Source of the DNA: Parvularculaceae bacterium
Lineage (GTDB): Bacteria > Pseudomonadota > Alphaproteobacteria > Caulobacterales > Parvularculaceae
DNA: 57,408 nt
NCBI GenBank assembly: GCA_021776435.1
Contig: JAJFFW010000040.1
Location: forward strand, 1 to 57,408
Reading direction: 5' to 3'
Part shown: positions 51,226 to 56,854 of the stretch, piece by piece
Position numbering within the stretch: the stretch's first letter is position 1
Layout of the letters: the number at the start of each line of letters is the position of its first letter
Position numbers and translations under genes: made by a program
Notes under the pieces: model-generated
Seen by the model: the letters and a program-made list of their open reading frames with translations, nothing else
What the model was told of the DNA's origin: nothing
The model's database searches: none

Positions 51226-51257
51226 CGGCCGCCCTTATTCGGGCGGCCGCTTTGTTA
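51226..51257 (+). terminator. Terminator after the TPR lipoprotein gene
   Basis: CGGCCGCCC (51226-51234) pairs with GGGCGGCCG (51241-51249) over a 6-base loop, followed by a short CTTTGTT. A strong GC stem with a modest T-tract, 25 bases after the stop codon. Confidence 0.7.
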
Positions 51258-51322: not shown

Positions 51323-52543
51323 TTGATGTGGAAACGTTTAAAAGCGATCGGGCCGGGCGCACTCATCGCTGCCGCCTTTATCGGTCCCGGCACGGTGACA
51401 ACGGCCACTGCAGCGGGGGCTCAATTCGGATATACGCTCGCATGGGCGCTCGTCTTCGCCACAATCGCAGCGATTATTTTACAGGAAATGTCAGTTCGCC
51501 TGGGCGTTGTCGCGAGGTTAGGCCTTGGCGAGGCGGTGTTAAAAACCCTCGGCGCGAATCCGGTTTTACGTTGGCTGCTGATCGGCCTCATAATAGCCGC
51601 ACTTTTTGTGGGCAACGCTGCTTATGAGGGCGGTAACATTGCCGGCGCCGCGCTTGGCTTAGAGACTCTATTTGACGGCGCCGTGCCCCATGACGTGTTG
51701 GCAGGCGCCACTGCGATTATGGCGGCTGGCATGCTCTTCTTGGGCGGTTACCGCGCAATTGAAAAATTTCTCATCGCCATCGTTTTGCTGATGAGCATAA
51801 CCTTCGCTGCAGCGCTCTTCATCATTGGGCCCGATCTTACGTCTCTTGCAAAAGGCGCCCTGCACCCACGCATTCCGGACGGAGCCCTCCCTATTGTCAT
51901 TGGGTTGATCGGAACGACGATCGTTCCCTATAATTTGTTTCTTCATGCAGCCGCAGCGAGGCGGCGGTGGAAAAATGCAACGGACCTTCCCGAAGCGCGT
52001 TTCGATGCAACCATTTCTATAGGCCTTGGCGGCCTCGTTTCGATTCTGATCCTGTCAACCGCAGCAGCGAGCCTGTTTGCGGCAGGGTTGAAAATGGAAA
52101 CTGGCGCCGATATGACGCGACAACTCGAACCCGCCTTTGGTCCGTGGGCGGGATACCTGCTTTCTACAGGACTTTTCGCAGCCGGGCTGAGTTCCGCAAT
52201 AACTGCCCCGCTTGCAACGGGGTTTGCGACTTCAGAATTGTTTGGCTTTAAGAGCGACCCCAAAGCATTCCCCTTTCGCATGATTGCTGGCGCAGTTCTT
52301 GGCATTGGCACGGCATTGGCGATTTTCGGCGTGAAACCCATTCAAGTCATCCTCTTTGCACAAATTGCCAACGGATTCTTATTGCCGATAATCGCCGTCT
52401 TCCTTCTTTATGCCGCGAACCAACACGCGTTGCTTGGAAGCAAAGCAAACGGGTTTTTGGCTAATCTCGCCGGAGGAATGGTGGTAGTGATCACCGCTGG
52501 CCTAGGTGTTCGTGCAATCTTGCGTGTGCTGGGGATTTTGTAG
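51323..52543 (+). CDS. NRAMP-like transporter lacking canonical metal-site residues
   Basis: A 406-aa membrane protein with about eleven helices and NRAMP family pattern. The TM1 motif, DPGN in true metal transporters, is GPGTVTT here; the TM6 motif, MPHN, is VPYNLFLHAA. Both metal-coordinating positions (Asp and Asn, Met) are changed. The gene starts the pxpABC operon, as YcsG, an NRAMP-like protein, does in Bacillus (ycsFGIJK). Its substrate may therefore be 5-oxoproline or another metabolite rather than Mn or Fe, but this is inference. The stop overlaps the pxpA start by one base. Confidence 0.85.
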   Translation: MMWKRLKAIGPGALIAAAFIGPGTVTTATAAGAQFGYTLAWALVFATIAAIILQEMSVRLGVVARLGLGEAVLKTLGANPVLRWLLIGLIIAALFVGNAAYEGGNIAGAALGLETLFDGAVPHDVLAGATAIMAAGMLFLGGYRAIEKFLIAIVLLMSITFAAALFIIGPDLTSLAKGALHPRIPDGALPIVIGLIGTTIVPYNLFLHAAAARRRWKNATDLPEARFDATISIGLGGLVSILILSTAAASLFAAGLKMETGADMTRQLEPAFGPWAGYLLSTGLFAAGLSSAITAPLATGFATSELFGFKSDPKAFPFRMIAGAVLGIGTALAIFGVKPIQVILFAQIANGFLLPIIAVFLLYAANQHALLGSKANGFLANLAGGMVVVITAGLGVRAILRVLGIL

Positions 52544-53319
52544 TGAATAAAAACGTTGTGATAAAAACAGTTATCGACCTCAATGCCGATGTTGGTGAAT
52601 ATGCCGACGAAGACGCCCGCAGGGTGGAAGCGGAACTCCTCACAATTGTATCCTCTTGCAGCATTGCTTGCGGCGGTCATGCTGGTGACGCCGAAACTAT
52701 GCTTGTGACGGCCCGCCTCGCCAACGAAAACGGCGTCGCCATCGGCGCCCACCCATCTTACCCTGACCGAGAAGGCTTCGGTAGACGCGCCCTTAAAATT
52801 TCTGTGCCGACATTAAAGTCATCTCTGGAAAAGCAGATTGAGACTCTTCTTGGCGTTCTTGTAGAAGAGCATATTCCCCTTCGCCACCTAAAACTTCATG
52901 GTGCGCTTTACAACATCGCGGCGCGCCATGAAGACATGGCTAGTGTGGCCGCTGCGCTCGCGAGAACGTATGATCTCGTATTATTTGGCCCCCCTGACTC
53001 TTCATTAGAGCGCGCAGCAAACAGGGTGAACGTTTTGTTCGCCGCAGAGGGCTTTATCGATCGCGGCTACCTTGCCGATGGGTCGCTCATCCCCCGTGAT
53101 GAGCCCGGGGCCATTATCGACACCATTAAAGCCCGCGCCAAACAGGCCGTCGCCATCGCAAAAGGGGAAACAATCACGGTCACAGATGGCGTCATCAAGC
53201 TCACTGCAAACACGCTTTGCATTCACAGTGACTCGCCTGACGCAATCGAAACGGCACGCGCAGCGCGCACCGCACTTGAAGCGTCCGCAATCACCATTCG
53301 TCCATTTTGTAAATCATGA
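52543..53319 (+). CDS. pxpA: 5-oxoprolinase subunit PxpA (LamB/YcsF)
   Basis: PxpA with PxpB and PxpC hydrolyses 5-oxoproline (pyroglutamate) to glutamate with ATP. The 258-aa protein has DLNADVGEYADED, SCSIACGGHAGDAETM, GAHPSYPDREGFGRR and LKLHGALYN. The start is GTG 52543, overlapping the transporter stop by one base, with GGGGA 7 bases upstream. Confidence 0.95.
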   Translation: MNKNVVIKTVIDLNADVGEYADEDARRVEAELLTIVSSCSIACGGHAGDAETMLVTARLANENGVAIGAHPSYPDREGFGRRALKISVPTLKSSLEKQIETLLGVLVEEHIPLRHLKLHGALYNIAARHEDMASVAAALARTYDLVLFGPPDSSLERAANRVNVLFAAEGFIDRGYLADGSLIPRDEPGAIIDTIKARAKQAVAIAKGETITVTDGVIKLTANTLCIHSDSPDAIETARAARTALEASAITIRPFCKS

Positions 53320-53325
53320 ATAACA

Positions 53326-54018
53326 ATGCGCATTGGTGAAATCATCTCCTTTGGCGAATGCGGGTTTCTCGTAAATATCGTTGGCTCACAGGATCCGATT
53401 AAAACCGCCGCGTATGTGAATTCAATTGCTGCAGAGCTGCTCACCGAGGGTTGTTGGCGCGATGTTACCCCCGGACTCGACAGCATTGCTGCACGTTATG
53501 ATCCCGTTTGCTTCGATCACCAGACCGCTCATGCTCTTTTTAAAAAGACCGTCACGGGATTCCGGTTTCGTCCTGTGAAAAGTCCCCCAATCAAACTAGA
53601 ATTGCCAGTTTTATATGGTTCAAAAGTGGGTCCGGATTTTGAATCCGTCTGCAAATTAACCGGCCTTTCCTCGGAAGAGCTCATAGAGCTTCATACCGGG
53701 CAAAGTTATCGCGTGCTTATTATGGGATTCGCCCCCGGGTTCGCTTATATGGGCACACTCGATGAACGCCTTCATACGCGCCGTCTTGATACCCCGCGAC
53801 AATCAGCACCGGCAGGATCGGTTGGCATCGCCGGAGCGTATACAGGCATATATTCCCTAAGGTCGCCCGGGGGGTGGCGGTTGATCGGGCGCACACCCAG
53901 GCGCTTATTTCGCCCAAAAGATCATTCTCCTTTTCTCTTTAGGTCCGATACTGAAGTACGGTTTCGTCCGATTACCGAGAATGAGTATGATGAGATTTCC
54001 CGGGAATCCTTGCCGTGA
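53326..54018 (+). CDS. pxpB: 5-oxoprolinase subunit PxpB
   Basis: A KipI-type subunit, 230 aa, with LPVLYGSKVGPDFESV, LIELHTGQSYRVLIMGFAPG, YMGTLDERL and IYSLRSPGGWRLIGRTP. ATG 53326 is 7 bases after the pxpA stop. It forms a complex with PxpC. Confidence 0.95.
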   Translation: MRIGEIISFGECGFLVNIVGSQDPIKTAAYVNSIAAELLTEGCWRDVTPGLDSIAARYDPVCFDHQTAHALFKKTVTGFRFRPVKSPPIKLELPVLYGSKVGPDFESVCKLTGLSSEELIELHTGQSYRVLIMGFAPGFAYMGTLDERLHTRRLDTPRQSAPAGSVGIAGAYTGIYSLRSPGGWRLIGRTPRRLFRPKDHSPFLFRSDTEVRFRPITENEYDEISRESLP

Positions 54019-54962
54019 CCGACGCAGTACTCACACTCTCCGGTGGCGCGCAGACAACAGTTCAAGATCTTGGCCGGCCTGGCTTACGTCATCTCGGTGC
54101 GCCACAAGGAGGAGCAAGCGACCCGCTTTCATGCGCGCTCGCCAATGTCGCGGTAGGCAACCCCGTCCATGCAGCCGTGCTTGAATGCACCCTTGCTGGT
54201 CCTGTATTGCAATTCAATGAAAAATCCGTCTTCGCGATTGCCGGCGCCGACATGAACGCCCGCCTGAACGATAGACCGATTTCACAATATGAACCGCATA
54301 CGGTGGATCCGGGCGCCATATTAACGTTAGCCGGCGCAAAAACCGGAATGCGTACTTATATCGCATTTCGCGGAGGTATTGTTGCTGATGTTTTTCTTTC
54401 CAGCGCTTCAACCTATCTGCCTGCACAGATTGGCGGATTGAATGGCAGGGCGCTTTTACCGGGGGACACTATTTCATTCATGACCCCGGGAGCCAAACCG
54501 CCAACAACAATTCCGCAGTCATATAGGCCAACCTTTGGACATGATTGGGTTTTGAGAGCATTGCCAGGGCCGGAAATCACTCTGATTACTGAAAGCGAGC
54601 GGCAAACTTTGTTCACAAAACCATTTACCCTGGAAAATCGTTGCGACCGTATGGGATTACGCCTTAATGGATCTCCGCTCACACCGGACCTGACAAGCAT
54701 CATGGCGAGCAGTGCAGTTTATCCTGGCACGTTGCAATGCCCGCCCGACGGGTCGCCCTTTTTATTGCTCAGTGATGGGCAAACAACTGGCGGCTATCCG
54801 CGCCTATTGCAGGTCTGCGCTGTCGATCTTTCCTTGCTGGGACAGCTTCAACCTGGAGACCGCATCTGGTTCCGGGAAATCTCGATCGAAAACGCTCTTG
54901 ATCTTCTCTTACGAAAGACGGCCCTTTATTCGGGGCTGCTCGAAGAGTTTAATTTCGGTTGA
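54015..54962 (+). CDS. pxpC: 5-oxoprolinase subunit PxpC
   Basis: A KipA-type, biotin-dependent-carboxyltransferase-like subunit, 315 aa, with TTVQDLGRPGLRHLGAPQ, GGASDPLSCALANVAVGN, ILTLAGAKTGMRTYIAFRGG and LLLSDGQTTGGYPRLLQV. GTG 54015 overlaps the pxpB stop by 4 bases (GTGA), so the two are coupled. It ends the operon. Confidence 0.95.
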   Translation: MTDAVLTLSGGAQTTVQDLGRPGLRHLGAPQGGASDPLSCALANVAVGNPVHAAVLECTLAGPVLQFNEKSVFAIAGADMNARLNDRPISQYEPHTVDPGAILTLAGAKTGMRTYIAFRGGIVADVFLSSASTYLPAQIGGLNGRALLPGDTISFMTPGAKPPTTIPQSYRPTFGHDWVLRALPGPEITLITESERQTLFTKPFTLENRCDRMGLRLNGSPLTPDLTSIMASSAVYPGTLQCPPDGSPFLLLSDGQTTGGYPRLLQVCAVDLSLLGQLQPGDRIWFREISIENALDLLLRKTALYSGLLEEFNFG

Positions 54963-55213: not shown

Positions 55214-56854
55214 ATGCAGAACACTTCTTTTATGAACAAGTCTCCCGACTACGACGTCATTATCATTGGCGCCGGTCATAACGGTTTGACGTGCGCCGCC
55301 TATCTCGCCGGCGCGGGCCTGAAAGTGAAAATCGTTGAGAAGAGATCGGTTGTTGGCGGCGCCGCAGTAACGGAAGAATTCCACCCCGGCTTTCGAAATT
55401 CTGCCGCCGCATATACAGTCAGCCTTCTAAACCCCAAGGTCATCGCGGACCTTGAATTGGCGCGATACGGGCTAAAAGTCGTAGAACGTTCCGTTTCGAA
55501 TTTTTGGCCGTTTGAAGATGGGCGATCCCTCACACTTCACTCTGAATCCGGAGCAATGAAACGGGAGTTTGAAAAATTCTCTGACCGCGATGCGCGCGCG
55601 GTCATCGAATATTATGGCGCTCTGGAACGCACCGCCGCCGTTTTTCGCCGCGTTGTCCTTGAACCCCCGCCAAATGCCGGCGGTGGGATTCTGGACCTGC
55701 TCCGTGCAGGCAAGCTCGGCCGCGACGTTATCAACTTGCCAATTGAAGACCAACGCCTCCTGCTCGACATTTTTACAAAGAGCGTACACGAATTCGTCTC
55801 CGGTTATTTCGAAACCCCCGAGATTCAAGCCGCTTGCTGTTTTGATGGGTTGATCGGCGCCTATGTAGGGCCACATACGCCGGGCACGGCCTATATTCTT
55901 CTCCATCACGCCTTCGGAGAAGTGAATGGCAAAAAAGGCATGTGGGGACATGCTATAGGCGGGATGGGCGCCATCACACAGGCCATGGCGAAATCTGCGG
56001 AAGCGCGCGGCGTTGATATTGAAACAAATACGGGCGTTCGTGAAGTGATTGTTGAGAATGGCGCAGCCCATGGCGTTGTTCTTGAAAACGGAGAAGCCAT
56101 TCGCGCCAAAGCGGTCGCAGCCAACGCCAATCTGAAATCGCTCTATACCAAGATGATCGATAGCAGCGTACTTGATACAGACTTCCTCCGCCGCATGACC
56201 AACTGGAAATGCGGGTCAGGCGTCTTGCGGATGAATGTCGCCCTTTCGGAACTCCCTGATTTTACATGCAAACCCGGGACATCTCAACAAGATCACCATA
56301 CCGCCGGCATCGTCATTGGTCCGAGCATTGACTATTTAGAACGCGCTTATCTCGATGCTCGAGAATTCGGATCAGCCCGAAAACCGATCGTCGAGATTAT
56401 GATCTCCAGTACGCTGGACGATAGCCTGGCGCCGTCAGGTCAGCATGTGGCAAGCTTGTTTTGCCAATCCTTCGCACCCGAACTGCCTGAGGGACGAAGC
56501 TGGGATGACGAACGCGAAGCCGCGGCTGACGCCGCAATCGACGCAGTGACAACATTCGCTCCGAATTTCCGTTCCTCGATCATCGGCAAAAAGACGTTGA
56601 CGCCACTCGATCTGGAACGTGATTTCGGTCTTGTTGGTGGCGACATCTTCCACGGCGCGCTTAGCCTGGATCAGCTTTATTCAGCCCGCCCTATGCTTGG
56701 TTACGCCGATTATCGCGGACCTCTGAAAGGGCTTTATCACTGCGGTTCCGGCGCCCATCCCGGCGGCGGTGTCACTGGTGCGCCTGGCCATAATGCGGCG
56801 CGCGAAATGATCCGCGATCTAAAGGGTTGGCGCCCATTTCGTCGTTTCGAGTAA
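55214..56854 (+). CDS. FAD-dependent oxidoreductase (PYROXD2/phytoene-dehydrogenase-like)
   Basis: A 546-aa flavoprotein. The Rossmann motif DVIIIGAGHNGLTCAAYLAG binds FAD at residues about 14-33, followed by EKRSVVGGAAVTEEF. The C-terminal FAD region has LYHCGSGAHPGGGVTGAPG. It resembles PYROXD2 and CrtI-like oxidoreductases; no carotenoid genes are adjacent, so the substrate is unknown. Start ATG 55214 or 55232; an AGG lies 9 bases before the first. Confidence 0.9.
   Translation: MQNTSFMNKSPDYDVIIIGAGHNGLTCAAYLAGAGLKVKIVEKRSVVGGAAVTEEFHPGFRNSAAAYTVSLLNPKVIADLELARYGLKVVERSVSNFWPFEDGRSLTLHSESGAMKREFEKFSDRDARAVIEYYGALERTAAVFRRVVLEPPPNAGGGILDLLRAGKLGRDVINLPIEDQRLLLDIFTKSVHEFVSGYFETPEIQAACCFDGLIGAYVGPHTPGTAYILLHHAFGEVNGKKGMWGHAIGGMGAITQAMAKSAEARGVDIETNTGVREVIVENGAAHGVVLENGEAIRAKAVAANANLKSLYTKMIDSSVLDTDFLRRMTNWKCGSGVLRMNVALSELPDFTCKPGTSQQDHHTAGIVIGPSIDYLERAYLDAREFGSARKPIVEIMISSTLDDSLAPSGQHVASLFCQSFAPELPEGRSWDDEREAAADAAIDAVTTFAPNFRSSIIGKKTLTPLDLERDFGLVGGDIFHGALSLDQLYSARPMLGYADYRGPLKGLYHCGSGAHPGGGVTGAPGHNAAREMIRDLKGWRPFRRFE

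Follow-up and report, generated by a model that had tools for sequence, protein, structure and literature searches.

An NRAMP-related protein lacking the metal ligands of its superfamily is a probable 5-oxoproline importer in a Parvularculaceae bacterium

The stretch of DNA analysed here (the window) comprises 57,408 nucleotides from a Parvularculaceae bacterium (Alphaproteobacteria; assembly GCA_021776435.1, contig JAJFFW010000040.1, positions 1 to 57,408 of the forward strand) and contains a gene for an NRAMP-related transporter followed by the 5-oxoprolinase genes pxpA, pxpB and pxpC. The transporter gene probably encodes a LeuT-fold importer of 5-oxo-L-proline (pyroglutamate) from the NRAMP superfamily, because the residues that hold the metal in this superfamily are lost and because, in its clade, the gene is found beside either of two unrelated 5-oxoprolinases; the mutant phenotype of a relative is the third basis of this reading. 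The substrate, the direction of transport and the coupling ion are what we infer from these data. The clade of the window protein, G1, carries the motifs GPGT and VPYN in transmembrane helices (TM) 1 and 6, and a second clade, G2, carries GPGF and GGTVGGY.

The genes of the operon and the hairpin preceding them are arranged as follows.

51226..51249, forward strand: terminator-like hairpin, located after the TPR gene and before the transporter gene (9 G-C pairs, then a T-rich tail)
51326..52543, forward strand: NRAMP-related transporter of the G1 (GPGT/VPYN) clade, 405 residues, proposed 5-oxoproline importer (Pfam Nramp, AlphaFold2 model, clade placement)
52543..53319, forward strand: pxpA, 5-oxoprolinase subunit A (LamB/YcsF; PF03746, NF003814 above its cut-off)
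53326..54018, forward strand: pxpB, 5-oxoprolinase subunit B (CT_C_D; PF02682, TIGR00370 equivalog at 155.9 bits with a cut-off of 145.55)
54015..54962, forward strand: pxpC, 5-oxoprolinase subunit C (CT_A_B; PF02626, TIGR00724 above its cut-off; 4-base overlap with pxpB)

The transporter matches Pfam Nramp with 279 bits (cut-off 29.8). Its start is more likely ATG 51326 than the alternative TTG 51323, and the last base of its TAG stop codon (52541-52543) is also the first base of the GTG start codon of pxpA at 52543, which is the one-base overlap that the original prediction, made from the sequence alone, had described. All three PxpABC subunits (LamB_YcsF, CT_C_D and CT_A_B) are encoded within one operon, although the window PxpC, while above the cut-off of TIGR00724, scores below that of the strict PxpC equivalog NF045499 (217 of 500 bits). 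With this hairpin lying between it and the TPR gene, the transporter gene is probably the first of the operon (terminator-like hairpins number 13 in the region, with 5.9 expected). The arrangement is like that of PxpT, a transporter in an apparent operon with a 5-oxoprolinase, and in relatives of the window the enzyme is swapped.

Within the window's class, all nine G1 loci found through the transporter, besides that of genome G612, adjoin a 5-oxoprolinase. The enzyme is PxpABC in the window and in genomes G183, G653, G637 and G608 (loci L053 and L064-L066), and a fused hydantoinase A-B protein of ~1,200 residues in G633, G573, G585 and G145 (loci L052 and L054-L056; a Pfam scan was made on two of these). 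In the window, L076, L077 and L054, which belong to the same family, the MarR, M17 aminopeptidase, TPR and transporter genes are kept in the same order, with 69% identity between the transporters. The window, L076 and L077 have pxpABC, whereas in L054 the fused enzyme takes their place, with an ATGA overlap at the junction. Since L054 groups with L077 (support of 88 in the SH-like approximate likelihood ratio test, SH-aLRT), nested among pxpABC-bearing loci with the upstream genes kept, an unrelated enzyme for one reaction has been exchanged in place in the window's family, while the transporter and the genes upstream of it stayed.

On haloarchaeal plasmids, hydantoinase A and B genes directly follow the G1 gene in three of the four loci inspected (L069-L071; not L074). 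These three loci lie on megaplasmids and have a gene for a CopG-type regulator ahead of the transporter and hydantoinase A/B genes, and two glutamate dehydrogenase-type genes are located nearby in L069. No 5-oxoprolinase adjoins the G1 locus of Pseudoalteromonas (L072) or Qipengyuania (L073). On the genome level, PxpA (11) or the fused enzyme (5) is present in 16/16 searched G1 genomes, and none has both; the background in the window's class, counted for PxpA alone, is 61/289 genomes.

The linkage was also followed from the side of the enzyme and compared with other NRAMP types. The survey of pxpA loci covers the best 80 of 586 matches to the window PxpA, among which kin of the window are over-represented. 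An NRAMP-family open reading frame (ORF) is present in 40 of these 80 loci (33 G1, 6 G2 and 1 canonical). The 33 G1 genes, of which 31 are intact, all precede pxpA and share its strand, while the six G2 genes are all downstream; the sole canonical one (L137) is ~7 kb from pxpA and on the opposite strand. L099 and L102, broken or masked, were excluded from set A2. In the adjacency control, the same 1.5-kb flanks were used, adjacency to pxpA or to the fused enzyme was counted, and identical rows were counted once. Such adjacency is observed for 0/30 canonical NRAMPs, 0/10 other D-types (D-type NRAMPs are the canonical, NRMT-like and DPSG types), 0/12 other non-D types and 8/15 G1 loci, the latter excluding the window as well as L165 and L168, which were found through pxpA (G1 versus canonical, Fisher p 3e-5, kinship ignored). 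Most of the 41 pxpA loci with no adjacent NRAMP gene (40 with none, plus L137) lack a membrane protein, as judged from a crude hydropathy count. In three NRAMP-less loci, a DUF979-type protein is encoded directly downstream of pxpA (L101 by Pfam, L123 and L135 by similarity to L101); the DUF979 proteins, which we take to be a 5-oxoproline permease, thus share with the window a transporter gene next to pxpA but belong to an unrelated family. A POT protein is encoded near pxpA in L100, and in L105 there is no Pfam match.

The G2 clade shows the same association. It was found in 22/296 actinobacterial genomes, and all 22 loci are near a 5-oxoprolinase gene: pxpA is adjacent in 19 and a fused hydantoinase A-B gene in one (L221/L235), and in the remaining two both pxpA and pxpBC lie no more than ~6 kb away. 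Each of the two clades therefore occurs with both enzyme types. Plasmids also encode G2 transporters, in Klebsiella (93 records), Enterobacter and Citrobacter, and the one Klebsiella plasmid inspected (L161) carries a whole cluster of GntR, NRAMP, PxpA, hydrolyase, urea amidolyase family and biotin carboxylase genes.

The sites of the window transporter that differ from canonical NRAMPs, or that are candidates for the substrate pocket, are the following.

51383..51394, forward strand: TM1 unwound segment GPGT, residues 20-23, replacing DPGN (from the sequence; G20 aligns with D56 of DraNramp)
51635..51637, forward strand: TM3 Asn104, replacing the conserved Glu (E134 of DraNramp; from the alignment)
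51923..51934, forward strand: TM6 unwound segment VPYN, residues 200-203, replacing MPHN (from the sequence)
52370..52372, forward strand: TM10 Asn349, candidate pocket residue common to both 5-oxoprolinase-linked clades (from the alignment)

In the window protein, the canonical TM1 Asp is G20, the TM6 Met and His are V200 and Y202, and the TM3 Glu is N104. The replacement motifs GPGT and VPYN had been read correctly in the original prediction, and since all eight residues (G20, P21, G22, T23, V200, P201, Y202 and N203) are invariant in 32/32 sequences (the window and 31 homologues), the motifs are not a product of chance decay. The pocket positions were compared in an alignment of 110 sequences (G1 40, G2 36, canonical 21, NRMT 3, DPSG 6 and other 4; L234, with a gap in TM3, was excluded). 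The D56 position is G in 76/76 G1 and G2 sequences and D in 30/30 D-type NRAMPs, and the E134 position, matched to N104 by sequence alignment and not by superposed coordinates, is N in 76/76 (40/40 in G1) versus E or D in 30/30. The H232 position is Y in 76/76, and the position of window N349 is N in 76/76, with L in 20/21 canonical sequences and a gap in one; the DPSG types share both the Y and the N. All four sequences of the "other" group likewise have G at the D56 position. The TM1 Gly by itself does not imply 5-oxoproline as the substrate, because among non-D types of that sort 0/12 have a 5-oxoprolinase neighbour. Further Nramp-family proteins without the TM1 Asp have the motifs GPGS, GPGA, GTGS, GGSH or GTSH (L067/L068, L201, L203-L206, L208, L210 and L212) and no 5-oxoprolinase neighbour.

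The original prediction also stated that true metal transport needs the DPGN and MPHN residues. This is strict for the Asp, which passages of PMC8806188 describe as universally conserved in the SLC11 binding site and as strongly compromising transport when mutated; it is less strict for the Met or Asn, as EcoDMT binding-site mutants still carried Mn2+ according to the same source. The DxxG-TxxA/T site given there for NRMT proteins, in which the Asp and the TM3 Glu are kept, is also absent from the window protein, with its GPGT and N104.

The AlphaFold2 model (built from the window and 31 homologues) has a mean confidence (pLDDT) of 90.2, with TM1 broken at residues 19-20 and TM6 at residues 199-200. 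The top solved matches of the model are EleNRMT and NRAMPs (Foldseek; VIA Z up to 49.1, root-mean-square deviation 2.4 over 388 residues), and, together with the Pfam match, Z scores of 34-49 to NRAMP structures place the protein in the LeuT-type NRAMP fold. The next matches are LeuT-fold amino-acid carriers (AdiC, ApcT, LAT1) with Z 25-30, a level that reflects a common fold only. Canonical NRAMP/MntH (SLC11) proteins thus resemble the window protein in fold and topology (Z up to 49), but they have their own DPGN/MPHN site and TM3 Glu, belong to another clade and show no adjacency to 5-oxoprolinase genes. The Mg2+ transporter EleNRMT, the top Foldseek match, is 27% identical to the window protein and, like it, is without the canonical Met and His; it keeps Asp55 and Glu133 (passages of PMC8806188), whereas the window protein has neither.

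Trees of 89 and 79 proteins, calculated quickly in IQ-TREE, part G1 (GPGT), G2 (GPGF/GGTVGGY), canonical DPGN, NRMT-like NDAG and DPSG types. The 89-protein tree includes a chosen part of the 40 G1 rows, the window among them (L086, L090, L095, L109 and other near-copies were excluded); for the 79-protein tree 15 rows were taken out and five put in. The window protein lies outside both the canonical clade (SH-aLRT 100 in the 89-protein tree) and the G2 clade (100 in both trees). The support for G1 is 97 in the larger tree and 87 in the smaller one, having fallen once long branches were removed and rows changed, and a joint clade of G1 and G2 is not rejected (approximately unbiased test, p 0.17). 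The phylogeny with pxp context, which had been proposed as a check, thus separates G1 from canonical NRAMPs and finds 5-oxoprolinase linkage in G1 and G2. The Pfam and NCBIfam models fail to tell the clades apart. The original prediction had further pointed to an NRAMP-like gene in the equivalent operon of Bacillus; this gene, ycsG, exists, but as YcsG belongs to another clade and the window model is 19% identical to it (structure 9a52_A; 59% for one G2 model), it represents a parallel case rather than an orthologue. Direct orthology of the window protein to YcsG/PxpT was rejected on the same grounds. YcsG was seen through the 9a52_A structure match alone, the G2 query having no YcsG match in the PDB sequence set, and no Corynebacterium glutamicum PxpT was found among the fetched loci with two published primer sites as the query; PxpT is placed in G2 because an identity of 50% to YcsG has been published.

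The characterized relatives, MumT, YcsG and PxpT, are all of the G2 type (PxpT by published identity), and the published accounts of them conflict. In C. glutamicum, pxpT is needed for growth on 5-oxoproline and plasmid-borne pxpT rescues the deletion; PxpT was accordingly named a 5-oxoproline importer in 2026, with metal transport not excluded by its authors, and PxpR of the same operon binds 5-oxoproline with a dissociation constant of 726 nM and does not bind Pro, Glu, Gln or Asp (passages of PMC13274462). YcsG, in turn, was renamed MntG and described as a Mn2+ importer, since its overexpression raised cell Mn and a triple mutant could not be built (passages of PMC10448178), and MumT, whose loss lowers cell Mn, was described as importing Mn2+ in connection with the use of urea (PMC5050338, in part) and is taken as a Mn2+ carrier also in the sections seen of PMC11796373. 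PxpT and YcsG share with the window protein the occurrence of an NRAMP-related protein in a pxpABC operon as well as the TM1 G, TM3 N, TM6 Y and TM10 N; they differ in clade and in their TM1 GPGF and TM6 GGTVGGY segments. MumT is likewise encoded by an NRAMP-like gene followed by 5-oxoprolinase genes, but it belongs to G2. In Acinetobacter baumannii X4-300 (L180:5712-13172), the gene order is LysR, NRAMP-like, PxpA, D-Glu_cyclase, fused PxpBC and biotin carboxylase with a carrier domain, the 5-oxoprolinase family names being those of Pfam and NCBIfam; from this order we infer that the published mum operon lies here. With genes for PxpA, D-Glu_cyclase, fused PxpBC and biotin carboxylase after the mumT-like gene, the operon resembles one for 5-oxoproline in its gene content.

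The imported compound could be a different small solute, one from which 5-oxoproline or glutamate is formed (D-5-oxoproline, glutamine, proline, a hydantoin or another lactam), 5-oxo-L-proline being a side substrate at most. The three architectures of the partner enzyme, two of them in the broad hydantoinase family, would agree with this, as would the D-Glu_cyclase gene of the A. baumannii G2 operon, the product of which presumably takes part in 5-oxo-D-proline chemistry. The sole reaction common to PxpABC and the fused eukaryotic-type enzyme, however, is the ring opening of 5-oxoproline, and although PMC13274462 reports growth and not uptake in the passages concerned, the selectivity of PxpR also argues for 5-oxoproline, so that another solute is judged quite improbable. 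The same passages bear on an exporter of 5-oxoproline or glutamate, or a sensor: 5-oxoproline arises spontaneously in cells, and B. subtilis without pxp genes accumulates it inside and in the medium, but on external 5-oxoproline the pxpT deletion strain fails to grow unless pxpT is restored, which makes export or sensing a very remote prospect.

Several observations weigh against import of 5-oxoproline. Seven of the 15 G1 loci (six of family f178 and that of G612) have no adjacent 5-oxoprolinase. The f178 loci (L057-L062), which we read as gammaproteobacterial from their gene content, have pxpA elsewhere in the genome and none beside the G1 gene; five of the six share one neighbourhood, with a conserved ORF of ~220 residues and a ClcA-like ORF. 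The hydantoinase-type partners are assigned by Pfam, and because other lactams and hydantoins are also substrates of their family, the haloarchaeal enzymes might act on a different compound. The remaining points concern metal, and also speak for the import of a divalent metal (Mn2+) through a rebuilt site, to supply the cell or the 5-oxoprolinase. The genome of the window (142 contigs, 98.6% complete) encodes one Pfam Nramp protein, the transporter itself; neither another Nramp nor a ZnuA-type binding protein was found in this genome and three relatives (0/4 for the latter), which leaves their Mn route unexplained. A ZIP protein, found in 6/9 genomes searched, does occur in that of the window. 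Both enzyme types may bind metal: a dependence on metal is described as probable for PxpA, and a conserved metal site for the oxoprolinase B part (PMC8453981, in part). Cell Mn changed with YcsG and MumT as described above. Against a Mn2+ importer, the Asp that is essential in SLC11 is Gly in 76/76 sequences and the TM3 Glu is Asn. A need for metal supply would also be expected to recruit canonical NRAMPs at times, but none of 30 is adjacent and the sole survey case is distant and on the other strand; moreover, the Mn data published, in the passages at hand, consist of cell content and mutant growth. A Mn2+ importer thus appears unlikely. The data favour an organic substrate, but the changes in cell Mn were measured and still stand; they may be indirect or reflect a second substrate. 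The suggestion of the original prediction that 5-oxoproline or an amino acid may be imported finds support in the clade-wide loss of metal ligands and in the linkage to two non-homologous types of 5-oxoprolinase.

For the import of 5-oxoproline by the window protein, the following mechanism is proposed. The substrate would enter, probably as the carboxylate, driven by H+ or Na+, and PxpABC would open the lactam with ATP to give glutamate. The Gly and Asn in place of two pocket acids would remove the charge that attracts divalent cations, and the TM1 turn, G-P-G, could offer backbone amides to the carboxylate. In amino-acid carriers of the APC superfamily, a G-x-G turn likewise offers its amides to the carboxylate. 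N104, Y202 and N349 are candidate contacts of the lactam.

The FAD-dependent protein encoded at 55214-56854 of the window has CrtO beta-carotene ketolase as its best NCBIfam match, with 256 of 1000 bits, far under the cut-off, and is probably not a ketolase.

Database names call these proteins divalent metal transporters. The window protein is matched by NF037982 with 105 bits (cut-off 50), and the haloarchaeal G1 and plasmid G2 genes carry metal-transporter product names; this name is probably wrong for two whole clades. In open-licence papers, no account of the enzyme linkage of G1 was found and "Nramp" with "hydantoinase" gave none, while for "5-oxoprolinase" with "Nramp" the works on pxpT and ycsG are the relevant ones. 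For G2, the literature already contains the proposal that an NRAMP-related protein imports 5-oxoproline; the present analysis adds a second clade, the exchange of the enzymes, the residue pair common to both clades and a different interpretation of the mum operon. Ray, Berry and Gaudet (2026) place MntG in "G-motif 3" and call the other Nramp-related groups besides the NRMT-like one entirely uncharacterized (passages of PMC12873925); their G-motif groups and G1/G2 are very likely the same broad assemblage, and the passages concerned give neither gene context nor an organic substrate.

The finding bears on the conflict between PxpT as a 5-oxoproline importer and its relatives YcsG and MumT as Mn2+ importers, and the window's family offers a natural test, in which one transporter slot is kept and two unrelated enzymes for one reaction are swapped. 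More tentatively, and with the balance of probability still against it, the NRAMP superfamily may have a whole non-metal branch, in which at least two deeply split clades, G1 and G2, carry 5-oxoproline, MntG (YcsG) and MumT are 5-oxoproline carriers with indirect effects on Mn, and metal transport may have arisen from an organic-solute carrier (TM1 Gly to Asp, TM3 Asn to Glu), since Nramp-related proteins are reported to be paraphyletic to canonical NRAMPs (PMC12873925, in part). For the uncharacterized G-motif NRAMPs, the analysis suggests a substrate that can be tested and two residues (TM1 D/G, TM3 E/N) as a pair for the switch between cation and organic acid.

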